From positions 1-64,000 of the forward strand of contig CAMWVA010000002.1 in the NCBI GenBank assembly GCA_947177575.1: a DNA stretch of 64,000 nt, given 5' to 3'. The position numbers and the translations under genes are program-made. The number at the start of each line of letters is the position of its first letter. Within the stretch, counting starts at the first letter, position 1. Below, in pieces: positions 15,473-64,000 of this stretch. The notes under the pieces are model-generated. The model ran no database searches. It had not been told where the DNA came from and saw only the letters and a list, made by a program, of their open reading frames with translations. This DNA comes from an uncultured Porphyromonadaceae bacterium. GTDB lineage: Bacteria; Bacteroidota; Bacteroidia; Bacteroidales; Muribaculaceae.

Positions 15473-15531
15473 CTTTTTTCTATAAACACAGTGATAGCAT
15501 ACAAACAGTCTGACACCCTGACCCAATAACG

Positions 15532-34321: not shown

Positions 34322-35011
34322 TTATTTCTTTTTTCTATTAAAGAATTCGGCAGATGCTTTTTTGCGGGCTTCTATGCGGTCCTCAGGAGCTTCACAAGAC
34401 TTTTCAAACTCCACACGGGCATTGAATCCATAAAATACTGACTCGCCGAAATCATCCCACATCTTTTTGATTCCCTCTTTGTCAGCTTTGAAAGCGAGAG
34501 TGTTGTCAATCTCCATCTTGCGTCCCATTTCTTCTACATCGATATTGGCGCCGATAAGATTGATTGTCCAGCCCTTTTCCTTAAGCTCTGCAATCAGAGA
34601 GGCTACCTGAGCCCAGGTGTAATGAGTAGATGAATTTTCCATACCGTCAGTGATGATAGTCACCATGCCGGTCGAGTCTTCGTGTGTAGAAGCTACTGCT
34701 CTCAGATCAACCAGTGTCGAACCTACGGCATCGAGAAGCGGTGTCAGACCATTTGGACGATACTGTTCAGTAGTAACATCCTTTACTTCGGCTATGGGTA
34801 CGTTCTTTACCAGATAGCGGGAAGGAACACTCGCATCGCTTTGGAACAGATAGATACTCACAAGATTGCGCTGAGTATCACCATGTTTATCTTGCAGCGA
34901 GCGTATCACGTTGAGAGTCTCGTTGCAACCCGATACGGTCTGTTGGGTTACACCTGACATCGAACCGCTCTCGTCGAGGATAATGAGGTTGAACACTGTT
35001 GTCTTTTCCAT
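34322..35011 (-). CDS. Cytoplasmic von Willebrand factor A domain protein
   Basis: FNLIILDESGSMSG (MIDAS DxSxS), TIITDGMENSS. Confidence 0.85.
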   Translation of the reverse strand: MEKTTVFNLIILDESGSMSGVTQQTVSGCNETLNVIRSLQDKHGDTQRNLVSIYLFQSDASVPSRYLVKNVPIAEVKDVTTEQYRPNGLTPLLDAVGSTLVDLRAVASTHEDSTGMVTIITDGMENSSTHYTWAQVASLIAELKEKGWTINLIGANIDVEEMGRKMEIDNTLAFKADKEGIKKMWDDFGESVFYGFNARVEFEKSCEAPEDRIEARKKASAEFFNRKKK

Positions 35012-45667: not shown

Positions 45668-47104
45668 TCAATAATACTTCATCGCTCCTGTTACCTTGCT
45701 CAGATATACTTCGCACAGGCGTATGGCGATTTCGGCGTCTATTTTCTCTGAATTGGCCTGTAACCAGGCTGTCTGGGCTGCTGTCACATCGTCGGTAGTA
45801 AGTACTCCCTCGCGGAAGGCTAACTGTGCCTGACGCAGATTCTCGTCAGCTTTGGTAAGGTTCTTACGGGTCATGTCGTAGGTTTTGAAAGCCTCCTGGA
45901 AGCTGTACTGTGCCTGACGTACCTGCAGGTCTACCTTCTCTTCCATATCTTCGAGCAGCAGACGCTGTGCATTTGTAGTGGCCTGAGTGGCACGGTAATG
46001 ATTGTAACGTCCGCCCCAGTGCCATATAGGTATAGTGACGGTAGCGCCGATACTGAAACCGCCGCCAAACCGCTTCTCGAATCCGTCTATCACATTCGGG
46101 TTACTGAAACTCCAAGCGCCTACCAAAGCAACTTTCGGCAACATCGTACCCAAAGCGAGTTTTTCGCGTCCTTTAAGCATATTGATGCCATGACGCAGCA
46201 CCTCAAGGTCCTGACGGTTGGCATATACATCGTTCATGTTGATATTGTAATCGGGTGCCTGTGTCGCGCTGCTACGCAAGCCTTCATCCGAAAGTTCCAT
46301 ATATGTATCAGCCGGCAGACCGCACAGCTGAGCTAACGCCATACGCGACAGCGTCAGACCGTTGTCAACCTTCGTAAGCATAATCTGTGCCTCGTTGAGC
46401 TTAACTTCGACAGTAAGCAGGTCGCTACGTGTAGCCATACCTTCCTCAAGCAGAGCATTGACATTGTAGCGCAGCGAATCAACCAAATTAACGAAACTCT
46501 GAGCTAACTTCTTCTTCTCTTTGAGTGATACCACCTGCCAGTAAGCCTCATCGACAGCATACACTATATCCTGTGCCGCACTGTTACGGGCTGCTATCGC
46601 TGCCTGTTCAGCATACTTGGTGATGTCATTAAGAGCACGTATCATACCGCCCATAAATATAGGCTGTGTCAGCGTAAAAGCACCTGCAAAGACATTGCGC
46701 GTATCATAAGTCATAGCCTCCTTAGGTATCACAGCCACTTCGGAAGGAATATAACTACCCGTCTGCGGATCCTTAATAGGAATACCGTCCGGACCCGTCA
46801 CCAGATTGTAATTATACTTCATCGTCTTGGGGTCGAACGACATAGTCGGCAACTTGGCATCCTCGCCAAGCAACGCAATCTCATGCTGATTATGCATGTA
46901 AGTACCGTTAAAGTCAATACCCGGCAGATAAGCCGAGAAAGCCGCCTTACGCTCCAAAGCCGCCCCGCGTACACCCTCATCGGCAACACGCAGCGTCTTA
47001 TTATTGCGCAACGCCATACTGCGGCAAGAGTCAAGACTCACCGTCTGCGCTGAGGCTGAACCGGCCAAAGCAAAGGCCAGCGAAAGCAATAGACATTTTT
47101 TCAT
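45668..47104 (-). CDS. TolC-like outer membrane efflux protein
   Basis: VSLDSCRSMALRNNKTLRVADE...; QPIFMGGMIRAL; coiled-coil OEP repeats. Confidence 0.92.
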   Translation of the reverse strand: MKKCLLLSLAFALAGSASAQTVSLDSCRSMALRNNKTLRVADEGVRGAALERKAAFSAYLPGIDFNGTYMHNQHEIALLGEDAKLPTMSFDPKTMKYNYNLVTGPDGIPIKDPQTGSYIPSEVAVIPKEAMTYDTRNVFAGAFTLTQPIFMGGMIRALNDITKYAEQAAIAARNSAAQDIVYAVDEAYWQVVSLKEKKKLAQSFVNLVDSLRYNVNALLEEGMATRSDLLTVEVKLNEAQIMLTKVDNGLTLSRMALAQLCGLPADTYMELSDEGLRSSATQAPDYNINMNDVYANRQDLEVLRHGINMLKGREKLALGTMLPKVALVGAWSFSNPNVIDGFEKRFGGGFSIGATVTIPIWHWGGRYNHYRATQATTNAQRLLLEDMEEKVDLQVRQAQYSFQEAFKTYDMTRKNLTKADENLRQAQLAFREGVLTTDDVTAAQTAWLQANSEKIDAEIAIRLCEVYLSKVTGAMKYY

Positions 47105-47820: not shown

Positions 47821-47854
47821 TTTGTAGTTATTTTAAATTTATTCTCTATCTTTG
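47821..47854 (+). promoter_or_regulatory. Promoter of the vWA/ATPase/tubulin-like operon
   Basis: TTTG - 22 nt - TATCTTTG, about 29 nt upstream of first ORF. Confidence 0.7.
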
Positions 47855-47882
47855 CCCGAAACAAAGACTTGTAAATTGGTGA

Positions 47883-49292
47883 ATGAACGAAGTTCAACAT
47901 CTATTAGACCTGTCATCTTATATAGTATGCCACTATCAAGAGCTTTTTAATATTTTTAACATGAAACGAGTAGATGTAAAGATTAAAGGACTTTTAATCT
48001 CGCTTAATGGCCTTTCCATTAAATTGCGAGTTATTTCAAGTGTCCTGATGTTTCTTACCACATATTTATGTATTAATGCTGAAAGTCTTACTACTCACTA
48101 TATTGTTGCTTTTGACCGTTCAGTAGAACTTTACCAATCAGACTACATAAACCCAAGAATTTTACATATTCTGAATCGTCTTCTTAAAGATAATAATTAT
48201 AATAGTGAGCAGGATTATGTCTCAATGATAGGTTATTCAATTGAGATGAGTAACCCTTCAATTGAGCGTTTTACTCGTCCCTATCGTAATGTCAACGGGG
48301 AGGAAATGATATGGAAAAAGATTAATGACACAAACTTGTCGTCTTTGTTTCCGACTTGGCCTAAGGGTCAACCTATTCTTGATCCAAATGCTCTTCCGTC
48401 AGCTTCACTTCAGTCTCTTTCCAAGCCTTATGCCGTAATGGAAACAAGTATTAACAAGGATTCTGTTATGAACGCAGACCGGACAATTTTACTTGTAGTT
48501 TCTGACGATGTAGTCAACGGCACGGATGATAATTATGCTCAGGAATGGAATCGTGTAGCGACTACTTCAACAAATTATCATAGATTTAATGAGCTTAGGA
48601 AGAATGTCTTTTCTACTATGGAAAAATTTAATGAAGAGTTTAAATTTATTCATATAGGATTAAAGTACGGTAATTCCACACGTGATAATATTTCAATTTC
48701 AGAAGATGGTATATATAAAATAACTCCTTATGAAGTTGTATCGGCTGAGCGTCCTTCTATTCATTCAGTAACTGATTTTCCGGTTCCGTTGCCTCTTCAG
48801 AGGGTACGTGGTGGTTTCCGACTAAATATTGAAACCGGTTCGCTGAATACGAAATATCTAATACGTGATATTTCTATCAGTAATGCAGACGGGAAACAGT
48901 TAGGCGTTTCAAACGATGGTGTTTTTGATATTGAGCTTAAGTCAGAAGATGTTACTCCCGGAGACACACTTAATATAGCGATGTCGCTATTCTTAAAAGA
49001 TGGGCTTTATAACGCAAGCATCATTTCAGCTGATAATCCAAGATATAGCGACGGTATGCGTATCCGGCAGGTAATTCGTCTTCAGGAAGAAACCAAAGTA
49101 CTTGGTCTGGTACCACTTAGTGACAGTTTTTGGTGGTGGTACCCAGATGATATTTTTACTGCTGTGATGATATGGGATCTTATTATTCTTATATGCTTAA
49201 TAGGGTTTGTAGCTTTTATTCTCTACCGGTGGTTTATCAAAATAATTACTTATATTCCTGAAAATAAAAATCTCAAGATAACAAAAATCTGA
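47883..49292 (+). CDS. Membrane-tethered vWA-like protein (operon gene 1; alternative start 47961)
   Basis: Signal/TM near N-terminus, THYIVAFDRSVELYQ (degenerate MIDAS), C-terminal TM AVMIWDLIILICLIGFVAFILYRW. Confidence 0.65.
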   Translation: MNEVQHLLDLSSYIVCHYQELFNIFNMKRVDVKIKGLLISLNGLSIKLRVISSVLMFLTTYLCINAESLTTHYIVAFDRSVELYQSDYINPRILHILNRLLKDNNYNSEQDYVSMIGYSIEMSNPSIERFTRPYRNVNGEEMIWKKINDTNLSSLFPTWPKGQPILDPNALPSASLQSLSKPYAVMETSINKDSVMNADRTILLVVSDDVVNGTDDNYAQEWNRVATTSTNYHRFNELRKNVFSTMEKFNEEFKFIHIGLKYGNSTRDNISISEDGIYKITPYEVVSAERPSIHSVTDFPVPLPLQRVRGGFRLNIETGSLNTKYLIRDISISNADGKQLGVSNDGVFDIELKSEDVTPGDTLNIAMSLFLKDGLYNASIISADNPRYSDGMRIRQVIRLQEETKVLGLVPLSDSFWWWYPDDIFTAVMIWDLIILICLIGFVAFILYRWFIKIITYIPENKNLKITKI

Positions 49293-49295
49293 TCC

Positions 49296-52200
49296 ATGCA
49301 AGTCAATATAAATCTTAACAATCGTCCACAGGCCGACAAGATTAATGTCGATCTGCAGTGGAACCTTGAAGTACTTGAACAGAAAAAAGGTCCATTATCT
49401 AAATTATTTAATAAATATACACGTATAAAGCGTACTGTACGTCTGGATATTGTTGATATTAAGGTACCAGAGGAAGTAGTTTGCAATCGTGATAATCTGT
49501 TTTCTATACTTTATAAAGAACAAATATTTGAACAGCAAGACTTTCCGGTCTCTATGGTTATTGAAAGTATGGAAACACCTTTCCAGCTTCTTTTCCATCA
49601 GAGCGAGATTAAAGACTGTAAACGTCAGCAAAACAAGAATCCTCGTTCCTACCGTATCTCATTTACAGTTCGTCTTCTTGAAGAAAATAGAGATACAGTC
49701 ATAACTTCTGAAAAAGGTGAGGTGGATATTGTTTTTGAACCACTTAATCTTCAACCTAATTTTATCATAGATCTTGAAAATGAGGATATACAGTATTCTT
49801 CCCGACTTAAGCGTACTAAAGTCGGTACATTTGTTGCATGGCTTGATGAAGCCTTTCTCTTTACACCGGATCAACATGTAAAAATTAACCTTAGTCTTTT
49901 TGAAAAAGACAGGGAATTAAGAAATTTAATTTCTTTTGAGAACGGAGAGCAGAGTGAAACCATAACTCTTGTTGGTGGAAGAAATAATTTACATCGTCTT
50001 CCGATATATGTAGATTTTACTGAGATTCCCAATCCTGTCCTTGATTCTGAAGATTTTACTATCAAAGCTACTATAGAATTATCTCCAGCTTATAGTCCTG
50101 AAGTCAAAGAGACTATCCTTAAGCAAGAGGTATTTCATCTTCTTAAAGATCAGCAAGGAACCGAACTCAAAACTTATGTTGGTTTCGGAGAAGATGTTCC
50201 ATCTGTCTATGACCGTACTCATTCAGCACCGGAGGTCAGAATGCACTTCGTTCCACGTAGCCCTCTGACAGGTCAAGCAACTATTATATTACGTAACATA
50301 GCTACAGACAATACCAATCCAAGAGCAGGTCTTCATATCAATAACCTAATGCTGAATGAGCAGGTTATTGACGATATAAAAATTGTAGGCGAAGACAATC
50401 ATCTGCTTGACAGTTTTATCACTATCGATGGTGCCGGGCTTGACAGAATGAATAGTTCTGCAGGTCTGTTTATACCTAATGGAGAAGATGCCGAAACAAG
50501 ACTTACAATGACTTTCGACCCTTCCAGAATTGTAGATATACTTAATACTACAAGTTATGATTTTAGTATTAAGGCTGAGCTTTCCTTTGACTATTGGGAG
50601 GATCGTAATGGAACAGGTATTCTTGATGAAGAGAATAAAAGAACTATGAGAATTCCTATCAAATGGAATCTTCACCTCGACCCTAACAAGGAATGGCTCT
50701 GTGTTGATTACGGTTCCTCAGCCATTGTGTGTCTATACGATAAAGAAATCATTGACCTTCATGACGCCAAAAACCGAATCTTCCGTCTTACGAAGTTTAG
50801 TGATGATACTTTCGAAAAGGGTACTAAGTTCCTTTCATCTGATATAGTTTTCCATACAGTTTCCGATTCTAAGGATTCAACTCTCAGTCAGCAGTTAAAT
50901 TCGGAAAAGGCTATTGAAGAATTTAAGAAACTTAATCTGTCAGTATGTCTGTCACCAACCTCAAGTCTTGTTGCTTATGATGTAAATACGCAGTTACCAT
51001 GTCTGAAAATACTTGTCGGTAACAAATATCTTCCGGATAGCAGACACTTTACTGATTTTAAATATACTCGTCGTGATAGTAACGGGCATGTTGGTAGTAT
51101 ACTTGCAAAAGATGCGAAAACTCGTGATGAAGATACATGTTTGTTAAAAATCAATACAATCTTTAGTGAAGCATATTCAGAACTTTTCAAGTTTTTCATT
51201 CTTCCCAAGAGTAAGGATCGTAATATTAATAAACTTATTCTTACCTATCCCAATACTTATACACCTGCTCATCTTAAGGCATTGGAAAAGATTGTGATGA
51301 ATACTTTCCCAAAGATTAGACCGGGATATCTGAGATTTGTAAGTGAATCTGATGCAGTCGCTTCCTATTATCTCCAGAATCTTGAAAGACTTAATCCTGC
51401 TTCCAGTGTTCGTGCTACGGAAACTGTGTTAGTATTTGATATGGGTGCCGGAACTCTTGACCTGACATTATTCAGAAAAAAAATAAATGGTGAAGGTCGT
51501 ATTGAGGTTGATATCCTTGGCAAAATAGGTACAGGTAGGGCAGGTAATTATTTAGACTATCTGATAGCTGAGATACTAAAAGATAAATATCCGACTTTAA
51601 TTAAGGATAAACATACTGTTTCTACCAGGTCGGTACTCCAGATGTCCACTCAGTATGAACGATTGGGACTCAAACAGCTTATTAAAGATGAAATAAAGCC
51701 TAATCTGCTTGCTAATACGGATATTAATATCACTCTCCCCCTTAATACTGATCCGGTACCAACCACTATGAAAATTGCTGCTGATGAGATTCTGGAGGAC
51801 TCACGTTTTAAAGAATTTCTTAATAATATCTCTTTTAATCTTATCAAACGCCTACTTGCGTATGTTAATGAGCCGAACCTTAAGATAGATACCTTACTTC
51901 TCTCGGGTAGAAGCTGTCGTATGAAGGCTATTCGGAATGCACTTCTTACTTCTTTTCAGCGAATGGGATTTAACATTACCCCTCTGATGTTTAGTGGAGG
52001 TACAGACCGTACTTATGCAGATCGTGAGAAGACTGTTGTAGTTGATGGTGCTGTAATCAGAGCGACTGTATTCAGTGCCAAGGATTCTCCGGTAATAATG
52101 CGCTCTCGTCGTCTCTATGCATCTTATGGATTAGTTTATGAAAAACTTGGCGGCAAGTATACTTATGTGGAACTTCTCAATGGTTCTGATACTCCTTTTG

Positions 52201-52538
52201 TAACAGACTACACCAATCTTACAGATTTTGTCGGTGAATCAAAGATAGCTAAAGGAACAGGGGCAGCTCAGACTATAAAACTGGTACAGACCTACCTTTC
52301 TCCTGAGAATACTGAAAAGGCGTATAACGATGGAGATATGGAGTTTATCTCTGATATGGAAGAATTCGAGATGTCTAATTTCGAACATGCTGACAGCCTT
52401 AATGTAAAACTCAAACTGGATTATAGAAATAATATCCAGCTTTATGTGAACGGTATGGTTACTAAAGGCCGTGCGCCTCGTGGTGTCGATCTTGAGAGCG
52501 AAATCACAAAGAAAAGTATCTGGCCTGTTACTATCTAA
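49296..52538 (+). CDS. Divergent Hsp70/actin-fold ATPase with long N-terminal extension (operon gene 2)
   Basis: WLCVDYGSSAIVCLYD (phosphate-1-like), VLVFDMGAGTLDLTLF (phosphate-2), LLLSGRSCRMKAIRNALL (adenosine-like). Confidence 0.75.
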   Translation: MQVNINLNNRPQADKINVDLQWNLEVLEQKKGPLSKLFNKYTRIKRTVRLDIVDIKVPEEVVCNRDNLFSILYKEQIFEQQDFPVSMVIESMETPFQLLFHQSEIKDCKRQQNKNPRSYRISFTVRLLEENRDTVITSEKGEVDIVFEPLNLQPNFIIDLENEDIQYSSRLKRTKVGTFVAWLDEAFLFTPDQHVKINLSLFEKDRELRNLISFENGEQSETITLVGGRNNLHRLPIYVDFTEIPNPVLDSEDFTIKATIELSPAYSPEVKETILKQEVFHLLKDQQGTELKTYVGFGEDVPSVYDRTHSAPEVRMHFVPRSPLTGQATIILRNIATDNTNPRAGLHINNLMLNEQVIDDIKIVGEDNHLLDSFITIDGAGLDRMNSSAGLFIPNGEDAETRLTMTFDPSRIVDILNTTSYDFSIKAELSFDYWEDRNGTGILDEENKRTMRIPIKWNLHLDPNKEWLCVDYGSSAIVCLYDKEIIDLHDAKNRIFRLTKFSDDTFEKGTKFLSSDIVFHTVSDSKDSTLSQQLNSEKAIEEFKKLNLSVCLSPTSSLVAYDVNTQLPCLKILVGNKYLPDSRHFTDFKYTRRDSNGHVGSILAKDAKTRDEDTCLLKINTIFSEAYSELFKFFILPKSKDRNINKLILTYPNTYTPAHLKALEKIVMNTFPKIRPGYLRFVSESDAVASYYLQNLERLNPASSVRATETVLVFDMGAGTLDLTLFRKKINGEGRIEVDILGKIGTGRAGNYLDYLIAEILKDKYPTLIKDKHTVSTRSVLQMSTQYERLGLKQLIKDEIKPNLLANTDINITLPLNTDPVPTTMKIAADEILEDSRFKEFLNNISFNLIKRLLAYVNEPNLKIDTLLLSGRSCRMKAIRNALLTSFQRMGFNITPLMFSGGTDRTYADREKTVVVDGAVIRATVFSAKDSPVIMRSRRLYASYGLVYEKLGGKYTYVELLNGSDTPFVTDYTNLTDFVGESKIAKGTGAAQTIKLVQTYLSPENTEKAYNDGDMEFISDMEEFEMSNFEHADSLNVKLKLDYRNNIQLYVNGMVTKGRAPRGVDLESEITKKSIWPVTI

Positions 52539-52556
52539 AATTGAAAAACTAATAAT

Positions 52557-55370
52557 ATGAAATATCTAAGTCAAAAGATTAAATATCTTTTTCTCTGTAC
52601 TATATCAGTGCTGAGCTTACTCGGTGTGTCATTTCAGGTAATGGCTGACCAGCTTTATCTTAATGTAGAAACCGGAAAGGTAAGTCTCCTTAGGAACAAT
52701 AAGCAGACATATTGGTCTTTGTCAAAAGAAAAAAATTCTTTTAAAACTTTAAAAGATTCTACTAAGGTAACAATTAGCAATATTAGACGATCTGATGAAT
52801 TGGAAGAAAAAGACAGAATCGTTATTATTGATGATTTTACCAATAAAGAAGTCTTTGCAGATTCAATGCAAAGTTATTTGTCAGAAAGTAACTTAAAAGG
52901 CAGGAATGTTAAGCTTCCTACTAACACAAATTATACTATAAAGCATGGAAGCAATGTATGGAACATGGCATTTATTGACCCAATCATCATCAAACAAAAG
53001 CAAGAAATTCAGAATCTCGAAAAAGAAATTAAAAAATTAAAAAAAGAAGAAGTATCTAATTCCAACCCTATAACAGAAAATCCTTCTTCAAATTCTCAAT
53101 GGGAAATCCTATGTATGGTTGGTATAGGTATCTTACTGCTATTTGCTATAATAGATACTTTTCTTTGGTTCAAAGGAAAGAAAAGAGTTCATGGTAAAAC
53201 TATAAAAAAGGAATCTGAATCATCAGAGGATAAAGGACCTGACAACACTCCAAAACAAATAGAAGAAAGCACTCCAACAGGAGATATTTCTACCAGTCAG
53301 AATGAGAGTCATTCTTCGCAAAAAGAAAATAAACCTCAGGAAGACGAAATCGAACAACCAAGGCGTAATCAAAAAGAGTTATTCCAACTGTTCGGTATGG
53401 ATGATAGTGTGGTAAATCCAAACAAAACTGAAATTATACCTTCTATTAATGGTTCTCCTTCGGAAAAATATGATACAAGTATAATAGAAGACTTTGCCAA
53501 AAAAATTATTCGTAGAATAAAAGGTAAGGATAAAAAAGAACTTAAATCTTTACTTAAAAAAGCCGAAGAAGATACAAGAGGACAGTCTTATGAAGCTACG
53601 CTTTATAAATTTATAGATCTATTAGCAGCTCATAATTTCTCTGAAAGGGAAACAATCAGTGGAAGTAGTAATAAAATAAATCCAGCTCAACTGTCATTAG
53701 ATATAAATAAGACAGTATTAAGAGACTGGCTGCTTAAGCGTCTTAAAAGTTATAACATTTTTGAAGATGTAAGTCAGTCTGCTGATATGAATACCATATT
53801 CGGTATGATTGTTGACAATTGGGAAAAGAGTAGTTCTATCCCTGTATATACAGATGAAGAAATAGTTTCAAATGCTGTTAGAGAAGGAAAACTTTCAGAA
53901 GAAGATAAGAAACTTCTTACAAGTCAGCTTATCCACCGATTGAACAACATTCTTTCCGATACAGAGAAATTCGATAGGACCCTTAGCTCTGAAGATTTCC
54001 TGACAGAAATCGCCAATATTGTTAGAGCTAATAATAATAGGCCTGAACTTCCGACGGACATTGTTGAGGCAAGAGAACAAGGACGTAAAGAAGTACTCAC
54101 CATATTTAAAGAGGCAATTCCTGATATGAAATGGGATCTCATAACTATAGATAAGAAAACTCTTGAACAAACTTTTGAGCGTGTAATGCTTTTCCGTCTT
54201 AATGATAAATTAGGATTAGACACCTCAAATCTCGAAGAGGCTTATGATATACTTCGGCATAGTTGTAAAAATGATAAGATATTTACAGCCCTGCTTGCTG
54301 AATATGGTGCAGAAGATAATAAAGAGTTAATTAAGCTAATAGGTACCAAGCAGCTTGAAGATACCCGTAAGACATTTGCCGGACGGGTGGTAAATATTGT
54401 ATCTGAAGAAAACATATCTTCTCTTAACAAGTTATTTACAGCTTTAATAAATCTTATTAAGGATTTGAAAGATACACATACACTTGTTATTAATGAACTA
54501 AGTGATAATATCAGGAAACTTGATCCCGCTTTCACTTTGACAACTAATGATGCATGTGACCTAACGGATATTTACAGCCGCCTTGTAAGTGAGAAACTGA
54601 AAAAAGCAGAGAATAATATTTCTGAACTTAATGATAAAGTTGAAAATCTTAAACAAAAGCTTTCTTATGCAGACGACAAGATTTCCAACTTAAAAACTAA
54701 AGTTAATACACTTGAGAAAGATAAGAAAGAATTGATGTCAGAATCTTCCTATCTGCTTAACAGCCTGCATGAAGGTGCTCGGAAGATTGCAACTTCATGG
54801 CGCCCTGTTCTTATGGCTACTTCACTTGATTATGATGCTGAATGTAAGGAAATCAATGATGACCTTGAAGAAGCCCTCAGAGAAGTATGTGAACGTATGG
54901 CTGCATTTACTGTACCGATTGAAACAACTGTACCGATTGAAACACGCAAACAGATTCAGCAGTTATTATGCGATGAGTTTGTTAAGCATGGAAGTATTCT
55001 GAACAAACTTTGTTGTTACTATGCTTATAGTCGTCTGCCATTTATGACTGATAAGGCACTTCCGAATGGTATTATCTTCCATCGACAGGCTATTTCCAAT
55101 CTTTTCAATATGATTGACGAACTTTATGCATACTTTGGTATCCGGCTTGATATACCTTTGCTTTTCGTAGCAAGTATAGAAGAAGGCAATTTTGAAAATG
55201 TTACCGGCCGTGCCTATGGAGATCTTGACAATCTTCATCCCAATTCACGAAATCATAAAGATAATATTGACTCCAATTCAAAACCGACTGAATTGGTAGT
55301 CGATGTCGTTGAGATAGGTTATACTGTTGATGGTGTCGAAAGGCGTAAATCTAAAGTAATAACATACTAA
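52557..55370 (+). CDS. Signal peptide - extracytoplasmic domain - TM - long coiled-coil protein (operon gene 3)
   Basis: N-terminal signal, TM WEILCMVGIGILLLFAIIDTFLWF, coiled coil KKAENNISELNDKVENLKQKLSYADDKISNLKTKVNTLEKDKKEL. Confidence 0.7.
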   Translation: MKYLSQKIKYLFLCTISVLSLLGVSFQVMADQLYLNVETGKVSLLRNNKQTYWSLSKEKNSFKTLKDSTKVTISNIRRSDELEEKDRIVIIDDFTNKEVFADSMQSYLSESNLKGRNVKLPTNTNYTIKHGSNVWNMAFIDPIIIKQKQEIQNLEKEIKKLKKEEVSNSNPITENPSSNSQWEILCMVGIGILLLFAIIDTFLWFKGKKRVHGKTIKKESESSEDKGPDNTPKQIEESTPTGDISTSQNESHSSQKENKPQEDEIEQPRRNQKELFQLFGMDDSVVNPNKTEIIPSINGSPSEKYDTSIIEDFAKKIIRRIKGKDKKELKSLLKKAEEDTRGQSYEATLYKFIDLLAAHNFSERETISGSSNKINPAQLSLDINKTVLRDWLLKRLKSYNIFEDVSQSADMNTIFGMIVDNWEKSSSIPVYTDEEIVSNAVREGKLSEEDKKLLTSQLIHRLNNILSDTEKFDRTLSSEDFLTEIANIVRANNNRPELPTDIVEAREQGRKEVLTIFKEAIPDMKWDLITIDKKTLEQTFERVMLFRLNDKLGLDTSNLEEAYDILRHSCKNDKIFTALLAEYGAEDNKELIKLIGTKQLEDTRKTFAGRVVNIVSEENISSLNKLFTALINLIKDLKDTHTLVINELSDNIRKLDPAFTLTTNDACDLTDIYSRLVSEKLKKAENNISELNDKVENLKQKLSYADDKISNLKTKVNTLEKDKKELMSESSYLLNSLHEGARKIATSWRPVLMATSLDYDAECKEINDDLEEALREVCERMAAFTVPIETTVPIETRKQIQQLLCDEFVKHGSILNKLCCYYAYSRLPFMTDKALPNGIIFHRQAISNLFNMIDELYAYFGIRLDIPLLFVASIEEGNFENVTGRAYGDLDNLHPNSRNHKDNIDSNSKPTELVVDVVEIGYTVDGVERRKSKVITY

Positions 55371-55380
55371 AATTACAATC

Positions 55381-56574
55381 ATGAAAAAGTGGATTATAGG
55401 ATTGGTATTATTAGTAATTGTAGGATATATTATTAAAATAATAATAGATCCACCTGTCGAAGTTTGGACTGATAATAAGGTCTATGCAGGTTATCAATCT
55501 ACTACTGTCAATGAGACGGCAACAGCACCAGCTGCCGCTGAGGTGTATATAGATGCCTCAGGCAGTATGAAGCCGTATTTTATGGCAGATGACAATGTAA
55601 TGACTCACCTGTTGGGAACTCTTCAGACTCTTACGCCCAATACCTCAGTCTATTTTCTTGATAATCCTAAGACTTATAAGGGTGAGCCCGGAGAAATTTT
55701 GAAAAAAGAGGATCAGCCGAATCTGTCAGCAACTACTTTTCATAGTTTCTTCTCGAAAGCTGCAGCACAGATTGATACTACTGACGTGATAGTGTACTTA
55801 ATCACTGATGGTATTATGAGTATAGGTAATCGTGGAGATACAAGAAGTGCTTTGACATATCTCAAAGGTAAGATAACAGAGGCTCTGCAGAATCATTCAG
55901 ATCTTGCAGGCGCTATACTGAGGTATTCCGGTGGCTATAAGGGTACTTACTGGAATATGAAGAATAAGCCCATAACCTTATCTAAGCAGATACAACGTCC
56001 TTTCTACGTTATAGCCCTCGGACGTAAAGCAGCCATACGCTGGCTTGAAGACATCAATGATAAGAAACTAGCTGAGTTAAAAAATCCGACTTCGATTTAT
56101 TTCGGTGTACATGATTTTAAAGCTCACAATGATGCTAAAATGTCTGCCGATACACTTTTACCGCTTCAGAATCCCGGTGATGAAGTGACATTGGTACTTA
56201 ATCTACCGCAATGCCTGAACAATCTTGATGTAAATAAAGTGGAAGTAGTACATAACGGCGCTGCTCTCACGGACATACGTCCTGACGGAACCACACAAAA
56301 AGTTAAGGCTGAGAAAGAAGCTAATGGTACACTTAGAGTTTTTGCTCATAATGCTCCCTTCGTTCCGAATGTCAATGGAGAGTATGTAGTAACTATCTAC
56401 TCATTGAATACTATACCTGACAGCTGGGTTTCTACATGGAGTAACGACAACGATGAGGAAGGTCCTGATGAAATCACTACTTTTGGTCTCTCCTACCTCG
56501 TCGAAGGCATTAAAAACGGTCTTGAGCCGCAGGATACGCTGTTTCGTGCCGACATGGTTTTCCTTCCTAAATAA
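55381..56574 (+). CDS. Signal-anchored vWA domain protein (operon gene 4)
   Basis: N-terminal TM IIGLVLLVIVGYIIKIII; EVYIDASGSMKPYF MIDAS; VIVYLITDGIMSIG. Confidence 0.85.
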   Translation: MKKWIIGLVLLVIVGYIIKIIIDPPVEVWTDNKVYAGYQSTTVNETATAPAAAEVYIDASGSMKPYFMADDNVMTHLLGTLQTLTPNTSVYFLDNPKTYKGEPGEILKKEDQPNLSATTFHSFFSKAAAQIDTTDVIVYLITDGIMSIGNRGDTRSALTYLKGKITEALQNHSDLAGAILRYSGGYKGTYWNMKNKPITLSKQIQRPFYVIALGRKAAIRWLEDINDKKLAELKNPTSIYFGVHDFKAHNDAKMSADTLLPLQNPGDEVTLVLNLPQCLNNLDVNKVEVVHNGAALTDIRPDGTTQKVKAEKEANGTLRVFAHNAPFVPNVNGEYVVTIYSLNTIPDSWVSTWSNDNDEEGPDEITTFGLSYLVEGIKNGLEPQDTLFRADMVFLPK

Positions 56575-56596
56575 AAACACCTCTAACATATATATC

Positions 56597-57145
56597 ATGG
56601 ATTTTATTTATTTCACAGTCACCGGTTCAAAATCATGGACCCCTGACTATCATGCGAATTTTTTCATTACCGAAGGCGGTTTTGCCTGGGGTATAGCAGG
56701 AGCAGTTATCATAGCCGTTATTTGTGCTTGTATCTTTTACTTCGGCTTCTGCAATAACAAGGATTCTGTCAAGGGAGCCTCTGTTACTGTCTGGGGTATA
56801 GTGCTTGTGGTAAGCGGTCTGCTTGGATATTTCTATGCCGATATGATATTGATCGGTGAGTCTAACGCCCGAGACAACAACGGTCTGTTTCGTACGCACT
56901 CATTCTATAAAGCCAATGAGGATTATTATATAGCCAAGACCAAAACAGGGGTATCACCTGCTATGGCTGGAGGGCTCGCTGCAAAAAAAGAAAAGATTAA
57001 GACAAATCTGGACAAAGGTAAAGATGTACGTTTCGATTTTGATCTTACTACTGGGCTGTTTACAGTGCTGATTTATTTTATTGTCAGCATTATCATAAAA
57101 CGTTTCAGCCGAAACGGCAGGGCAATTCCTTTCCAGAATCCATAA
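56597..57145 (+). CDS. Multi-TM small membrane protein (operon gene 5)
   Basis: Three hydrophobic segments; start at MDFIYFTVTGSK (56597), ORF-track extension overlaps the previous gene. Confidence 0.7.
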   Translation: MDFIYFTVTGSKSWTPDYHANFFITEGGFAWGIAGAVIIAVICACIFYFGFCNNKDSVKGASVTVWGIVLVVSGLLGYFYADMILIGESNARDNNGLFRTHSFYKANEDYYIAKTKTGVSPAMAGGLAAKKEKIKTNLDKGKDVRFDFDLTTGLFTVLIYFIVSIIIKRFSRNGRAIPFQNP

Positions 57146-57157
57146 TACCTCTGAAAG

Positions 57158-58777
57158 ATGAAGAAAAAGTTATTTATATTTGCCATAGGAGGCACTGGTG
57201 AGCGTGTACTGCGTTCGCTAACAATGCTGTTTGCTGCGGGAGTAGAGTCTCTGAGCAATTATGATGTTTATCCTATAATTATAGACTATGATCTGAAGAA
57301 TGCTGATAAGCAGCGTACAGTGGAGCTACTCCGCAATTACAAAAAAATACACAATGCCGCTTTTATGGCTCACGGAGAATTAGGCTCACAGGATAGACAA
57401 TTTTTTGCTGCTGATTTACACAGTGTAGACGGCCTGGAGGATTATATTTTTCCATTCAAACCTGCGCAGGATAATATCAAATTCAGAGATTATATAGGTT
57501 ATGGTAAATTTGCAGGTGATACTCTTCTTACCGAAGATTTGCTACGAAGTCTGTATGACGACTCACAACGTCCCGACACAGAACTTAATCTTGATATGAC
57601 AGTGGGCTTTAAGGGAAATCCCAATATAGGAAGTGTTGTATTCAATTCAATAGCTTCGACAGATGAATTCCGAAACTTCCTAAATCATTTTCAGCCCGAG
57701 CAAGAGGATAAGGTCGTTATTATAGGATCGCTGTTCGGTGGTACGGGTGCGGCAGGTATCCCGGAGATTACCAAAGCTATAAATGCTAAAAAAGAAGCTG
57801 CTGATATAGCTACGGTCCTGGTATTGCCTTATTTTTCACCTATGGAGCAAAAAGATGGTGCCATACGCGCTGACCGCTTCAACTCAAAGACAAAGGCGGC
57901 GCTGAGTTATTACAAAAATTCAGGTATTCTGAATCAGATAAATAGAGTTTACTACATAGGTGATCCACATCGTACTATTATTGCTTATAGTGAAGGCGGC
58001 GATACCCAAAAAAACAACGCCAATGTAGTCGAACTTATAGCGGCCATGATGATTGAGCACTTTGCAGCTAATCGCGGAGAAGTGGGACAAAAAGAGTATA
58101 AGTTTTCTATAGATGCTTCGATAACGGAAGACAATACACAGAAATCAGCCCAGCGTCTGTTTACTTATGATTTTGATCCTATATCTATTAATAAGGTCCT
58201 ACTGCCTCTTATAAGGCTTGCCATAGCTCTTAAGTTCTTTCATGAAAGTATATGGGGGAAAAAGACTTCCGGTCAGGACTTTCATAAGTACCTTAAACTT
58301 AACGATGCTATTGAGGTAAACGAAGCAAACGGTAATAAGAGTCGTCTAACTGTATTGTGTGCTACATTGGAAAAATTCTATAAACAATATCAGGGATGGC
58401 TTAAAGAACTGGATTTTGAAGGTGACGGAACCACTATTCCCGGCAATTCTCATCGTTTTGCTCTGACTGATATGAATAAACCTTATGCCGATCTTATTCT
58501 GCGTCCTGCTGCCACCGATAAAGAAGCTCAGGAACCCGGCTTTTGGCAAAGGCTTTCAAATCTGATAGGAAATTCCAATACTAAACCTGTCCTTACAGAT
58601 GATAATCTGATGAGTTGGATGAACGGTGAGTTTAGAGATAATGGCAATGGGAATGGTCATTATGACACTAAAAGAAATGCTGTACGCGAGGGTCATGAGC
58701 CGGAATACGTATTTGCCGATATCCTTTACAAGGCATCTGACAAAGGGTTACATAACCTGATATCTTCAACCAATTAA
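57158..58777 (+). CDS. Tubulin/FtsZ-like GTPase superfamily protein (operon gene 6)
   Basis: KLFIFAIGGTGERVLRSLTMLFAAG N-terminal loop; VVIIGSLFGGTGAAGIPEITKAI resembling the GGGTGTG tubulin signature. Confidence 0.75.
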   Translation: MKKKLFIFAIGGTGERVLRSLTMLFAAGVESLSNYDVYPIIIDYDLKNADKQRTVELLRNYKKIHNAAFMAHGELGSQDRQFFAADLHSVDGLEDYIFPFKPAQDNIKFRDYIGYGKFAGDTLLTEDLLRSLYDDSQRPDTELNLDMTVGFKGNPNIGSVVFNSIASTDEFRNFLNHFQPEQEDKVVIIGSLFGGTGAAGIPEITKAINAKKEAADIATVLVLPYFSPMEQKDGAIRADRFNSKTKAALSYYKNSGILNQINRVYYIGDPHRTIIAYSEGGDTQKNNANVVELIAAMMIEHFAANRGEVGQKEYKFSIDASITEDNTQKSAQRLFTYDFDPISINKVLLPLIRLAIALKFFHESIWGKKTSGQDFHKYLKLNDAIEVNEANGNKSRLTVLCATLEKFYKQYQGWLKELDFEGDGTTIPGNSHRFALTDMNKPYADLILRPAATDKEAQEPGFWQRLSNLIGNSNTKPVLTDDNLMSWMNGEFRDNGNGNGHYDTKRNAVREGHEPEYVFADILYKASDKGLHNLISSTN

Positions 58778-58787
58778 AATTAACAAT

Positions 58788-61700
58788 ATGCCTGATAATA
58801 TAAATGGGACTGATACCCAGGTAGCTGAGGCCATTAAGAGAAATTACTTTACCAATGAGAATCCTAACGCCGTTTATAATACAACCGGTATGCATGGTGT
58901 GGTAGGCGGTAGTGTGGATATATCGCAGATTGAAGACGGTGTAACCGAACGTGGCGTCGGATTAGGGAAACTTGGTTCATCAATGCCAACTCCCATGGCG
59001 CGACTGTTTCTCTTTGCCACAGCCTTCGAGCAAGTCAATAGTTTGCAGAGTAAAAACTCTCATCAAGGCCATATAGGCATACCTGACAATGAAGTGCGTC
59101 TTGTACCCACTCCCTATCATGACCTTGTCAGCGAAATGTTGGATATGCTGGAATTTACTTTTAAATATGGTGACCATCCTGATTTTCATGTGGAGCGTTG
59201 GGATATAGGCTTTGAGAAACAGAATCTTGACAGATCAGAAGTTGATGCACATAAAGATTTAGGAGTCGCACTTGAATCAGCCTTCAGTTTCGGTGCGCTT
59301 CAGAATCGTTTGCCGATATTTCTTTTCAAATGGAAAAATCATGTCATCGGAGGCACTTCACCTGTATCACTCGTCTATACCTCGGCCAATCTAAGGTCTG
59401 TTCTGAATAAAAACAGATTTAGTTTTAACGGTGATGCCGGCAATCCTCTTTTTACTGATCAGGCTACACCTCTTCATAAGCGTGACAAGGCTTTTCAATC
59501 ATATATATATAAACTCTATCTGAACTACCTGATAAATTCTCCTGTCTATCTTACAGGAGTAGCGCGTTATATACAGGACAGCGGTACCACTTATTCGCCT
59601 GGTATCTATAATGCTGCACGCCGTGCCCCGAATTTCGATGGTCTTCCTGAACTGAAGTCAAAAGAGAGTGGAGAGAGGGTAACGCTCGGTTCGATAACAT
59701 TTCGTCATTCCGATCATTCGGTAAAGATCGATAGGTCAACTACTGACTATCTTCTCGCACCTACTGCCACTCACTATGAAAAAGGAGAAGTAGGTAAAAA
59801 AATCCCTATGATACTCACTAAGTATGGTATTAACGGATTGAAATATGTAGGCGATAAGAATTGGTTGCCCGGTACCCATTCTATTCCTGGAGTACTGACT
59901 CCGAATATTTATGACCGTACGCTGCCCGGTTTCGAAAAAGTAAAGTATCCATATTTAACGGTTTCCGACTTTTTTGAGGATAAAATTATCGAGGTTAGCT
60001 ATGACATAAATCGTGAGCGTTTCTATACTGGATGTGATGATAATATCAATTTTCTGTTACCACTTAAAAAGATTTTCTTTGAATATTTCAAGTTATCGGA
60101 TCTTATTACCGAAAACGGACGCTTTACAGATATGCTTAAAGCGGAGTATGATGAAGAACATGAGAAGCTGATTCTAGAACTTACCCTACCTCTTGTACAC
60201 GGACGAAAAATCACTCTCACTAAGACTTATGATACCTCTGACCAGAGCAAGGATAAGGTAGATTGCTATGACTCGTCACATACCTTCGATTTCGCGGTAT
60301 TTCCTTTTTATCGTCTTGAACCGGACCGTGATCAGAATGTGTACAATATAATGTTAGGCAGCTCTTTTAACGGAGTGAGTCTGAAATTTTTTGAACTTCC
60401 CGTAATATCTAATCAGGGTGTTGAGGAAGTAACAGCAGTTGTAAAACGCAGATCCGAAAAAAGCCGTGATAAAGCTTTACTCTCTACTGACCATATACAT
60501 GTAGACGGGCCATTTAGTTTTATAGAGCTTACAATACAGGCTGAAAATGTCAGTGCTCTTGTCATTCCTATGTTTGATATTGTAAATTCCAATCCGACTA
60601 TTGTAACTAATAAGTACATTTTCGGGGTGGATTTCGGTACTACTAATACTCATGTAGCCTATTTTGTCGGACCTGTGGGAGTACCTATTGCCACAGCTGA
60701 TCCTTTTAGTTATAAAGAGGAGGACAGTCAGATGGTGATGTTCAACAGTAAGTCCGGAGCAGGAGAGTTTGTCACCTTCGTGACAGCAGCCAAGCGTGAG
60801 TTCGTACCCTTAACCATAGGCGAGACAATAAAATTCCCTATCAGGACCGCGACATTTCAGGCAGCCGGCAGGCCTAATACTCTGGAAATGTTCTTTAATA
60901 CCAATATAGGTTTTAATTATAGCGAGGATATATCGCGTGCAAGTGACTATAAGACTAATATCAAGTGGGATCGCTTTGATGGCCTTTCTCATCAGAGGAT
61001 GCAGACCTTCTTTACTCAGATGCTGTGGATGATGAAAAACAAGAGTGTTCTCAACGGTGCTACGGCTGATTTTACCGTGATAGTGACTTACCCACTGTCT
61101 ATACGTGACAGTGACAGAGCTATCTTTAAAGATGCTTGGCGACAGGCAGTGACAGAGGTAAAAGGGCATATTGACATCAGGTATCGTACCGAGAGTGTGG
61201 CCCCCTATTATTCTCATCTTGCGGAGATGAAGTATGGTGAAGCTTATGCTAATATAGATATAGGAGGTGGTACGACTGACATATTGTATGTTAATCCACA
61301 AAGTGGCGAAGCCTGTGTATTCTCAGCTTTCTTTGCTGCAGATGACCTGTGGAATGACGGACTCGACCGTAGTAATATGGGTAGAAAGAAGAACGGTTTT
61401 ATTACTTACTATAAGGAAACTCGTAGAGACCGGCTTGGAGACCGTATGACTGATGTGCAGAATATGATTGACAGTGCTTCTTCTTCGGCCGATATTATAA
61501 ATTATCTTTTTGCTAATGATTCGTGGACGAGACTATCAGAAACTATAAAGTTTTCACCACGTATGATTCAGTTGCCTGTAGTTCATTTCTCTGCTCTGAT
61601 GTTTTATATGGCTTATGCTATTCATCTGGCTGAATTTGAGGTGCCACATTATATATCGTTTACCGGTATGGGGTCCAAATATGTACAGTTAATCAGTACT

Positions 61701-62264
61701 CATCCTGATTCGGTTGCCAAGATAATCAAGGCTATTTTTCGCTATGTTGGAAATCTTTTTAATGATGATGAACTTAAGAAAGCAGATAATATAAAAGTGT
61801 CTTTCGTTGAAAAACCGAAAGAAGTAACTGCTGAAGGAGCTCTGATATCGCTTAACTATGGTAGTGAGGATGATGAAGAGGTAATTAATCCTAATCAGGA
61901 CACTTTCTATGGTTTTGAAGAAGAAGAGGTGTATAATAACACATCGTTGAGATATGGAAATCTGAATAACGATATACAGAGTAAAGTCATAAAGCTTTTC
62001 AAAAGTTTTCTTGATATGTTCGCTAAGGAAGATATTATAGATGCTTTAAGTGAAGTTGGACATGGCGTTGATAATGATATCATCACAAGATTACGTAATT
62101 GTGCAGATTCGAGTTATCGTCAGATGCAAAATTCCTCTAAGAAAGGCCAGCGAGATACTGATAAAGTTAAGGAACCGATGTTCTTCTGGCCTCTGAAGAA
62201 TTCATTATACGAGATAGGTAAAGAGATAGCAGAAGCAAGTATCAATAAATCAGGTGAAAAATGA
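58788..62264 (+). CDS. Protein with ~600-aa novel N-terminus and C-terminal Hsp70/actin-fold ATPase (operon gene 7)
   Basis: YIFGVDFGTTNTHVAYFVG (phosphate-1), AYANIDIGGGTTDILYV (phosphate-2), ISFTGMGSKYVQLI (adenosine). Confidence 0.8.
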   Translation: MPDNINGTDTQVAEAIKRNYFTNENPNAVYNTTGMHGVVGGSVDISQIEDGVTERGVGLGKLGSSMPTPMARLFLFATAFEQVNSLQSKNSHQGHIGIPDNEVRLVPTPYHDLVSEMLDMLEFTFKYGDHPDFHVERWDIGFEKQNLDRSEVDAHKDLGVALESAFSFGALQNRLPIFLFKWKNHVIGGTSPVSLVYTSANLRSVLNKNRFSFNGDAGNPLFTDQATPLHKRDKAFQSYIYKLYLNYLINSPVYLTGVARYIQDSGTTYSPGIYNAARRAPNFDGLPELKSKESGERVTLGSITFRHSDHSVKIDRSTTDYLLAPTATHYEKGEVGKKIPMILTKYGINGLKYVGDKNWLPGTHSIPGVLTPNIYDRTLPGFEKVKYPYLTVSDFFEDKIIEVSYDINRERFYTGCDDNINFLLPLKKIFFEYFKLSDLITENGRFTDMLKAEYDEEHEKLILELTLPLVHGRKITLTKTYDTSDQSKDKVDCYDSSHTFDFAVFPFYRLEPDRDQNVYNIMLGSSFNGVSLKFFELPVISNQGVEEVTAVVKRRSEKSRDKALLSTDHIHVDGPFSFIELTIQAENVSALVIPMFDIVNSNPTIVTNKYIFGVDFGTTNTHVAYFVGPVGVPIATADPFSYKEEDSQMVMFNSKSGAGEFVTFVTAAKREFVPLTIGETIKFPIRTATFQAAGRPNTLEMFFNTNIGFNYSEDISRASDYKTNIKWDRFDGLSHQRMQTFFTQMLWMMKNKSVLNGATADFTVIVTYPLSIRDSDRAIFKDAWRQAVTEVKGHIDIRYRTESVAPYYSHLAEMKYGEAYANIDIGGGTTDILYVNPQSGEACVFSAFFAADDLWNDGLDRSNMGRKKNGFITYYKETRRDRLGDRMTDVQNMIDSASSSADIINYLFANDSWTRLSETIKFSPRMIQLPVVHFSALMFYMAYAIHLAEFEVPHYISFTGMGSKYVQLISTHPDSVAKIIKAIFRYVGNLFNDDELKKADNIKVSFVEKPKEVTAEGALISLNYGSEDDEEVINPNQDTFYGFEEEEVYNNTSLRYGNLNNDIQSKVIKLFKSFLDMFAKEDIIDALSEVGHGVDNDIITRLRNCADSSYRQMQNSSKKGQRDTDKVKEPMFFWPLKNSLYEIGKEIAEASINKSGEK

Positions 62265-63100
62265 TCAGTATCACCGTTACCCAACAATCAGCAAACAATC
62301 GTGCTAAAGCTGTAGTTGCCGATAGTCCTTTAGCTTCTTCGCAGACCGAAACCGATACATTAGCTACTGTATCAAATACCGCAGTGCTAACCGATACAAC
62401 TTCTGTAACACAGACCACGCTTGCCACTCCACCTGAGAGTAAACAGGATGAAAGTGACAATACAGTTGCTTGGATTGGTGTGGGTGTGGGATTAGTAGTC
62501 GGTGTGATAGCGTGGAAGCTGATTTCAGACTTGAAGAAAAAGATTACTTTGCTTGCTAATAAGGTTGATAAGCTGACAGAAGAAAACCAGTTACTCAACG
62601 CCCATTTCAACGAGACTAATTATTCCCTGACCTCTCTTAACACTCGTCTGAGTAAAGTAGAAAGTACCACTTCTTACCTTCAAGATTTTTGGTATCAAAA
62701 TTCAATCTCGTCGAAAGTAAGTGAGTACGGCAACAGTAGTAACGAAAGAGAGCGGATATCATCACCTACGACACTGATCAGATATGCTACTTCACGGATG
62801 CCTGATGAATTGGGAGTATTACGCTTCTCGGAACGTTCGATGAGTGAGGAACCTTCGGAACAGAAAATGTTTATTTTGGAGTTGGATCCAGTTTCCGGTA
62901 CCGGGACTTATAAGATTAATCCCAAGGCTATGAATACCATACTTCAGGATCTTGATGTGTTCAAGAATTTTGTTAAACCGTTTTCTGTTACCGGGAATAT
63001 TACCGGTGCCACAGTTATTGATAAAGTTATTGGTAGAATTGTCAAGGACGGTCCGTATTGGGTAGTCGAGCAACCTCTTGAAATCACTTTAGTAAAATGA
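62261..63100 (+). CDS. TM plus short coiled-coil protein (operon gene 8)
   Basis: TM TVAWIGVGVGLVVGVIAWKLI; ITLLANKVDKLTEENQLLNAHF; ATGA overlap with gene 7. Confidence 0.65.
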   Translation: MISITVTQQSANNRAKAVVADSPLASSQTETDTLATVSNTAVLTDTTSVTQTTLATPPESKQDESDNTVAWIGVGVGLVVGVIAWKLISDLKKKITLLANKVDKLTEENQLLNAHFNETNYSLTSLNTRLSKVESTTSYLQDFWYQNSISSKVSEYGNSSNERERISSPTTLIRYATSRMPDELGVLRFSERSMSEEPSEQKMFILELDPVSGTGTYKINPKAMNTILQDLDVFKNFVKPFSVTGNITGATVIDKVIGRIVKDGPYWVVEQPLEITLVK

Positions 63101-63103
63101 AAA

Positions 63104-63205
63104 AGGGTGTGTCATAAATGACCTTTGTAAGAACCTGTTTTCAGTATGACAAAATATTGCTTAAAATACCATACTTCAGAGATATAGTTATTTAGGACAC
63201 ACCCT
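63104..63205. mobile_element. 102-bp MITE-like element
   Basis: Terminal inverted repeats agggtgtgtcataaat / atttaggacacaccct (15 of 16), non-coding interior. Confidence 0.55.
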
Positions 63206-63225
63206 AAAATTTAAAAATAAAAGTT

Positions 63226-63792
63226 ATGACAGACATAGATAATGTACGTATTCCTATAGATAGTGAGGAATTTGCCAATGCATGGCGTATAGTTTCAGAA
63301 GCATTGCTACAACATATTCAGAGAGGAGGCGTTTTCCCCTTTCCTCCTGGTCAACCTTCTTCTAAGCAAACTATTGCAGGACAGACTGGTGAACAGACGA
63401 AGGAACTTGTAGATATCCTACCTTCAGAACCTCCTAAAAAAAGTGAAAGAAAAATTGTAGGAAATTACTATGCTGTAGACCCTCTTACAAACAGCAATAG
63501 AGAATACATTTTTAAACGACGTGGACTCAAAGAAGATCAGGATTCCAATCATCTTTATCACGTAATCTGTTTTGATGATAATACTTTCGAATTTGAACTA
63601 ATTCCTACTCTTGAGAAGGAAGGAAGAGAGAATTTCAAAAATTCCACAAAGAGAGAGGAATTCATTTTAGTCAATGGTCAGATAACACCTGACTGTCCTA
63701 TAAAAATTATCCACAAAGGAAAAGGAATATTTGATGGCCGTTTTTATAAAATCACTGAACCTGTAGAAGTAGATTTAACAGGAACAGAATAA
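63226..63792 (+). CDS. Hypothetical cytoplasmic protein (operon gene 9)
   Basis: 188 aa, same strand, follows the MITE-like element. Confidence 0.6.
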   Translation: MTDIDNVRIPIDSEEFANAWRIVSEALLQHIQRGGVFPFPPGQPSSKQTIAGQTGEQTKELVDILPSEPPKKSERKIVGNYYAVDPLTNSNREYIFKRRGLKEDQDSNHLYHVICFDDNTFEFELIPTLEKEGRENFKNSTKREEFILVNGQITPDCPIKIIHKGKGIFDGRFYKITEPVEVDLTGTE

Positions 63793-63820
63793 GAGGTAGG
63801 CTAACATCATACTGAAGAAT

Positions 63821-64000
63821 ATGAAAAAAATACTTCTGATAGCCGGTATCATTGTAGTTGTCATTTTTTTCGTAAAGAAGTGTCGTAGTGGCGAAAACGG
63901 AATTGATACCAATGATACTTCCATAGCCGGGTACACCGGTACAGTAAGTGAGATCAACGGCAATGTATTGACTTTAGTTTCTGGCCTTAATGCGCGCCTG
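63821..64000 (+). CDS. Signal-anchored protein, truncated by window edge (operon gene 10)
   Basis: ATG at 63821: MKKILLIAGIIVVVIFFVKKCRSGENGIDTNDTSIAGYTGTVSEINGNVLTLVSG, open to the end. Confidence 0.6.
   Translation, partial: MKKILLIAGIIVVVIFFVKKCRSGENGIDTNDTSIAGYTGTVSEINGNVLTLVSGLNARL

Follow-up and report, generated by a model that had tools for sequence, protein, structure and literature searches.

A predicted tubulin-like GTPase conserved in a pair with an Hsp70/actin-type ATPase in a membrane-linked operon of a Muribaculaceae bacterium

In this study, we analysed the first 64,000 nucleotides of contig CAMWVA010000002.1 (assembly GCA_947177575.1), hereafter the window, from an uncultured Porphyromonadaceae bacterium of the gut, assigned by GTDB to the Muribaculaceae. 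The end of the window carries an operon in which the gene of a predicted tubulin/FtsZ-fold GTPase (TUB, starting at position 57158) directly precedes that of a large protein with an Hsp70/actin-type ATPase domain (ACT2, 58788). By combining sequence analysis, fold prediction and comparative genomics, we show that TUB and ACT2 are a conserved pair, adjacent or fused. The conserved unit is a five-gene core composed of a vWA protein, a small membrane protein, TUB, ACT2 and a membrane adaptor, and not the whole operon. NTPases of the tubulin and actin/Hsp70 types represent the two great folds of the cytoskeleton and of chaperones. In these loci, they are nearly always neighbours and sometimes share one polypeptide, beside vWA proteins.

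The TUB-ACT2 pair and the conserved core

The AlphaFold model of TUB, computed with 45 homologs as input (pLDDT 82, pTM 0.89), predicts a tubulin fold. In the fold search against the PDB, the 50 listed matches were all members of the tubulin/FtsZ family (FtsZ, CetZ, PhuZ, tubulin) or tubulin-containing complexes, with PhuZ at the top. Most of these matches had a probability of 1.00, but the E-values are modest (best 1.4e-3) and the TM-scores low (0.2-0.4), so that the likeness is confined to the GTPase core. Among the 45 homologs, the T1 (IGGTGER) and T4 (SLFGGTGAAG) loops are invariant or nearly so, with residues G11, G12, G14 and S191-F193-G194-G195-T196-G197 strictly invariant. By itself, the window protein stays under the curated Pfam cut-offs, with 17.4 bits against 27 for Tubulin_2 (PF13809). 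At E-values up to 0.1, Pfam Tubulin is matched by 18 of 19 family members (best 5.6e-6) and Tubulin_2 by 16 of them (best 4.9e-8). The tubulin-like nature that a preliminary description of this DNA had read from the GGTG loops is thus upheld by the predicted fold, the PDB matches and the conservation of these loops.

The same description had proposed an actin/Hsp70 fold for ACT2 and for ACT1, the product of a gene further upstream (49296). Both proteins carry Hsp70/actin (ASKHA) ATPase domains, as indicated by their motifs, by profile searches and, for ACT2, by the fold. The phosphate and adenosine motifs are DFGTTNT, DIGGGTTD and GMGS in ACT2, and DYGSS, FDMGAGT and LSGRS in ACT1. The AlphaFold model of ACT2 (pLDDT 78.5) matched Hsp70 (9.4e-10) and MreB (1.2e-8) with Foldseek, and MreB was also found by profile search (6.7e-5). 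ACT1 matched BiP/DnaK structures (1.7e-6) and the PADLOC model PDC-M61B (1.9e-8). The two families are related to each other by profile over the phosphate-2 region (4.6e-8). What they share with DnaK/Hsp70 and MreB/actin is the fold of the ATPase domain; they differ in being far larger (1080 and 1158 aa for ACT1 and ACT2, respectively), with long N-terminal regions beyond this domain. Fold matches span the ATPase domain, and no Hsp70 substrate-binding domain was matched by Pfam in either protein. The window ACT2 has no Pfam match at all at E-values up to 0.1, and an assignment of ACT2 to the SrfB family was rejected in a comparison with the Pfam model alone, none of its members matching PF07520 at the same threshold.

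We compared the gene neighbourhoods of about 50 loci (designated by L numbers), 46 of which were testable for the neighbours of TUB. ACT2 is the gene directly after TUB in 44 of these 46 loci; the median distance between the two is 6 nt. Furthermore, in two genera of one family both proteins are encoded by a single open reading frame (ORF) of 1681 aa (G606; L104:11096-16141) or 1615 aa (G552; L105, ORF from 548), with TUB first and both sets of nucleotide motifs present. Since they form one protein in two distant relatives, TUB and ACT2 almost surely work together. Of the other core members, vWA2, the vWA protein of the core, lies near TUB in 32/46 loci and proteins with the adaptor domain in 27/46. 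The expectation that homologs would keep the whole gene set together did not hold; only the five-gene core is kept, and the full layout of the window is restricted to three loci.

Operon layout and membrane-associated partners

The operon comprises 12 co-directional genes, from 47,883 to position 66,259 of the contig. As anticipated, it runs past the window end at 64,000: two further genes follow, then a 468-nt gap, on a contig that extends to 75,824. The ten ORFs of the window were verified at their predicted starts, the last of them being truncated by the window end (true end 64891). Intergenic distances of 3, 18, 10, 22, 12, 10, -4 (an ATGA overlap), 125 and 28 nt agree with the tight spacing initially described, 125 nt being the single exception to gaps under 30 nt. 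The TAnnTTTG promoter was also recovered, as a TTTG-N22-TATCTTTG element at 47821-47854, 28 nt upstream of the first ATG; this Bacteroidetes-type pattern has 12 occurrences in the window, where chance would give 2.4. The features are as follows.

47821..47854, + strand: Bacteroidetes-type promoter TTTG-N22-TAnnTTTG (pattern match)
47883..49292, + strand: vWA1, export signal, putative vWA-like extracytoplasmic domain, C-terminal transmembrane (TM) helix 428-446 (sequence pattern, fusions in L027 and L031)
49296..52538, + strand: ACT1, cytosolic, 1080 aa, Hsp70-type ATPase domain (profile searches)
52557..55370, + strand: CC1, signal/TM 8-26, TM 184-202, coiled coil, 937 aa, no known domain (sequence)
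55381..56574, + strand: vWA2, predicted N-terminally anchored vWA protein, MIDAS DASGSM (motif conservation)
56597..57145, + strand: small membrane protein, about three TM helices (sequence)
57158..58777, + strand: TUB, predicted tubulin/FtsZ-fold GTPase, 539 aa (AlphaFold, fold matches, Pfam on the family)
58788..62264, + strand: ACT2, 1158 aa, C-terminal Hsp70/actin ATPase domain (Foldseek, MreB profile, adjacency to TUB)
62261..63100, + strand: CC2, TM 70-88, coiled coil, conserved C-terminal adaptor domain of ~130 aa (sequence, domain recurrence)
63226..63792, + strand: H188, carries the adaptor domain a second time, no TM helix (domain recurrence)
63821..64000, continuing to contig 64891, + strand: TRYP, predicted membrane-anchored trypsin-like serine protease (Pfam Trypsin_2, motifs)

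The first gene probably starts at M27 (position 47961) rather than at 47883, given the lack of conservation in the 26 residues before it. All 12 genes are found in identical order in L004, a metagenome-assembled genome labelled Bacteroides sp., with protein identities of 65-94%. The G+C content falls from ~0.42-0.52 across the 20 kb upstream to 0.34-0.41 inside the operon.

Two membrane-tethered vWA proteins had been proposed, and this is partly supported. From its sequence, the product of 55381 is predicted to be a vWA protein anchored in the membrane, and its MIDAS motif is intact. DASGSM and its surroundings are conserved in 27 homologs, many of which have a lipoprotein-type cysteine; there is no Pfam match, and the sole match of the profile search against the PDB is a region of ITIH4 (E 0.67). 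For the product of 47883, a vWA fold was not demonstrable by profile methods. Its vWA-like features are FDRS and the sequence pattern, and the unproven vWA assignment draws on this pattern and on fusions in relatives. There is no profile similarity between the two proteins, and a close relationship of vWA1 to vWA2 was rejected. Outside the operon, the window also encodes a stand-alone vWA protein with the MIDAS motif DESGSM (34322-35011, - strand).

The position of vWA1 is matched in L027 and L031 by the N-terminal part of fusion proteins. In these single chains of 1966 aa and 1246 aa, respectively, a signal-led N-terminal region is followed by a TM helix (401-419 and 405-423) and then by ACT1. 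In the window, vWA1 and ACT1 are separate genes 3 nt apart; because they form a single chain in these two loci, they probably make up one transmembrane unit. As for the other partners, the adaptor domain, present at the C-terminus of CC2 and in H188, recurs in 34 proteins whose genes almost always follow ACT2; in L089 it is joined to ACT2 in one protein. TRYP matches Pfam Trypsin_2 (1e-23) and has the motifs TNWHV and GNSGGP. CC1 was considered as a ZorA-like protein, and the profile comparison was negative.

Sister loci and relation to known systems

The genes surrounding the core define several subtypes, whose order is uncertain as long branches meet in the TUB tree. The window type, in which vWA1-ACT1-CC1 precede the core and a trypsin-like protease follows it, is found in the window, L004 and L019. 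A motor type accounts for 16/46 loci. These encode a MotA/TolQ-like protein, which has a long coiled coil, together with a partner of the MotB/OmpA kind; the two resemble ZorA and ZorB. This partner matches solved ZorB structures (2.4e-13, 9.5e-9), and the pair matches the PADLOC models ZorB1 (4.5e-12) and ZorA2 (8.7e-7). The loci with TUB-ACT2 fusions also contain a ZorAB-like motor gene. In the Ter type, at least two TerD proteins (6.4e-44) are present; in L033, L034, L035, L022 and L093, the genes after TUB-ACT2 encode a protein of ~600 aa, with no known domain, and TerD proteins. In L036 (2812-8613), from the same genus as the window, two DO-GTPases (DO-GTPase1/2, 5.9e-10 and 1.4e-8) and a weak GAP1-M/N2 match adjoin TUB-ACT2. 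Proteases vary too: a trypsin-like protease is found in 15 loci, and five others have a member of an aspartyl-protease family; no locus has both. In L076, L079, L089, L096 and L098, the aspartyl protease is retropepsin-like and the trypsin-like one absent. The window operon has none of ZorAB, TerD or DO-GTPase/GAP1; instead, it has a second vWA-Hsp70 pair and a trypsin-like protease.

The presence of TUB is patchy (15/61 close relatives, 20/294 genomes of the order and 14/397 genomes of the phylum), so that the system is accessory. The core is also carried by cyanobacterial plasmids: the order vWA2, membrane protein, TUB, ACT2 and adaptor is found on a plasmid of Picosynechococcus, and a Gloeothece plasmid has the core with vWA2 on the opposite strand. 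The two plasmids inspected are typed as mobilizable, and their proteins are similar to those of the window (TUB 6.3e-75 and 1.8e-73; ACT2 6.8e-66 and 5.1e-51). A phage origin was considered and rejected, with no match among 50,697 phage records.

Tubulin-like proteins encoded beside vWA genes are known. Makarova and Koonin (2010, PMC2875224) described FtsZl1 operons with vWA proteins, P-loop GTPases, kinases and OmpA proteins, and proposed from gene context a role in membrane remodelling. Our operon shares with these FtsZl1/Tubulin_2 (PF13809) systems a divergent member of the tubulin superfamily in which T1 and T4 loops are present, a vWA gene (55381) and membrane partners, and cyanobacterial tubulin-like relatives were found at 6e-23; OmpA-type (MotB/ZorB-like) proteins are shared by some sister loci only. 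By contrast, the window operon has no P-loop GTPase (no gene has a Walker A motif), no protein kinase and no OmpA match, although a P-loop GTPase or OmpA-type gene is frequent rather than universal in FtsZl1 operons. The TUB model has no helix longer than ~26 residues, and thus lacks the extended coiled coil found in the majority of the FtsZl1 family. Furthermore, the main text of PMC2875224 mentions neither an Hsp70 nor an actin-fold partner. Because of the missing Walker A motif and OmpA gene, the lack of an extended coiled coil and the sub-cut-off score, we do not class TUB, though related, as FtsZl1 proper, in line with the initial view of the locus as related to, yet distinct from, these operons. 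Described in 2010 from gene context only, the FtsZl1/Tubulin_2 family here gains a defined partner and a role that can be tested.

A second link is to the GAP1-N2 GTPase-centric conflict systems described by Kaur et al. (2020, PMC7159879), in which tubulin and HSP70 are listed as non-overlapping themes, the tubulin theme being stated for firmicutes and actinobacteria only. Shared features are a tubulin-domain gene with two vWA genes and membrane proteins, and HSP70 in some of these systems. The window operon differs in having neither DO-GTPase nor GAP1, and in the co-occurrence of the tubulin and Hsp70 folds. The DO-GTPases and GAP1-like protein of L036 connect the core to these systems. Finally, the ZorA/ZorB-like pair of the motor-type loci is shared with Zorya, which defends only if ZorB binds peptidoglycan and ions flow through ZorAB; its proposed signal is phage damage to the envelope (PMC11890865). 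The window operon differs from Zorya by the absence of ZorAB, and no ZorC, ZorD or ZorE was recognised. We also considered ZorAB acting in trans and rejected it: elsewhere in the genome, which is 86.5% complete, we found a weak MotB-like protein and a coiled-coil match, and no pair.

Beyond Kaur et al. (2020), we found no description of a tubulin-Hsp70 pairing in the open-access PMC literature, most subscription papers and preprints lying outside this search. The pairing was perhaps overlooked because the window ACT2 has no Pfam match. Altogether, the system is real, conserved and partly new, as a variant of the known tubulin-vWA systems whose own core is a tubulin-Hsp70 pair.

Possible functions and genomic surroundings

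We propose that the operon encodes an accessory, membrane-bound, NTP-driven system for envelope sensing and switching, most likely acting in conflict or in defence against envelope stress, possibly against phages; we would give this reading about an even chance of being right. The vWA proteins, predicted to be extracytoplasmic, would sense damage, phage contact or a foreign protein through their metal-dependent binding site, and the membrane proteins would relay the signal to the Hsp70-like ATPases in the cytosol. These may control the assembly of TUB into a membrane-attached polymer or ring, and the assembled state would trigger an output that differs by subtype. In the window version, the likeliest output enzyme would be the trypsin-like protease. 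In sister systems, the core is tied to a ZorAB-like ion motor, to TerD or to a DO-GTPase/GAP1 module, with Zorya as a possible model for the motor type. Given such varied partners, the core would serve as a unit for sensing and switching that can be reused. As its ties to ZorAB, TerD and DO-GTPase/GAP1 suggest, several conflict systems that have been described separately are built around a common switch. The broader proposal of a widespread, unrecognised immune or envelope-sensing machine, in which a tubulin-type GTPase and an Hsp70/actin-type ATPase, as obligate partners and sometimes as one protein, form an interchangeable switch between an extracytoplasmic vWA sensor and outputs as diverse as Zorya-like motors, TerD, double GTPases and proteases, is more doubtful.

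A link to the envelope is supported by the ZorB-like partners of sister loci and by the L,D-transpeptidase and SH3 genes beside the core in L101, and a link to conflict by the DO-GTPases and GAP1-like protein of L036 and by TerD. The proposal also draws on the TUB-ACT2 pairing, the single chains that contain ACT1, the recurrent adaptor domain, the accessory spread with plasmid carriage, and the swap of proteases. Several observations weigh against this proposal. We recognised neither a nuclease nor any other typical killing domain in the window operon, and PADLOC models match the flanks of operon loci and of control loci alike. By inspection, TUB has no evident NxDxxD-like motif of the T7 catalytic loop after the putative H7; it may therefore bind GTP but not hydrolyse it as FtsZ does. 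We found no published experiment on any member of the operon.

Alternatively, TUB filaments could bend or pinch the membrane, the Hsp70-like ATPases serving as assembly factors, as in the membrane remodelling or vesicle formation suggested for FtsZl1. The relationship of TUB to Tubulin_2/FtsZl1, the several membrane proteins among its partners and the gene-context proposal in PMC2875224 speak for this role, but that proposal rests on context only, and the patchy spread, the plasmids and the links to ZorAB, TerD, DO-GTPases and proteases favour a conflict or stress role over a general role in cell shape. We consider remodelling unlikely, and neither it nor secretion, both raised in the preliminary description, received specific support. 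A similarly low probability is given to envelope-stress or quality control without defence, in which the vWA proteins and the protease would recognise misfolded envelope proteins and the Hsp70-like ATPases and TUB would organise the response. The Hsp70-type domains, the vWA proteins, the trypsin-like or aspartyl proteases and the peptidoglycan-related genes of sister loci would suit it; however, a housekeeping role predicts steady inheritance, while the operon is patchy even within one genus, and Pfam recognises no Hsp70 substrate-binding domain.

A cytomotive role in segregation or positioning, TUB moving DNA or a cell structure as TubZ or PhuZ do, is suggested by the top fold match to PhuZ and by the cyanobacterial plasmids. 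We regard it as very improbable: no centromere-binding gene was seen, no replication genes were recognised in the operon, the system also occurs on chromosomal contigs, and export or membrane attachment is predicted for its vWA and protease partners. That the genes are unrelated, chance neighbours could be argued from the outer genes, which vary among loci, but has practically no likelihood and is already refuted for the core by the 44/46 adjacency, the two TUB-ACT2 fusions, the two fusions of an exported region to ACT1, the adaptor-ACT2 fusion and the conservation into Cyanobacteria.

Regarding the genomic surroundings, a TolC-like gene upstream of the operon is present throughout the genus, and close relatives with this gene have no operon at that site. 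In several of them, it adjoins a MATE-ParA-ParB cluster; in the window, the two are ~26 kb or more apart (13161-17195 and 45668-47104), which indicates that the region was rearranged. In L101:15510-17413, a close neighbour of the window type in the tree, the SH3-domain membrane protein and the L,D-transpeptidase lie after the core and point to peptidoglycan. Past the operon, the contig encodes two membrane M48 metalloproteases (L002:3728-6625 and 9652-12822; contig 66728-69625 and 72652-75822), one with a DUF2167 domain and the other with Sel1 repeats, and between them an HTH-IrrE-type regulator (contig 69981-70985). A Panacea/SocA-like antitoxin gene and its partner, an ORF of 144 aa, are probably a toxin-antitoxin pair and are located 5 kb past the operon (L002:8190-9199; contig 71190-72199). 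The same gene and partner ORF adjoin the operon in L004 (19744-20753), and this Panacea (SocA-like) neighbour in both species is weakly suggestive of a mobile island.

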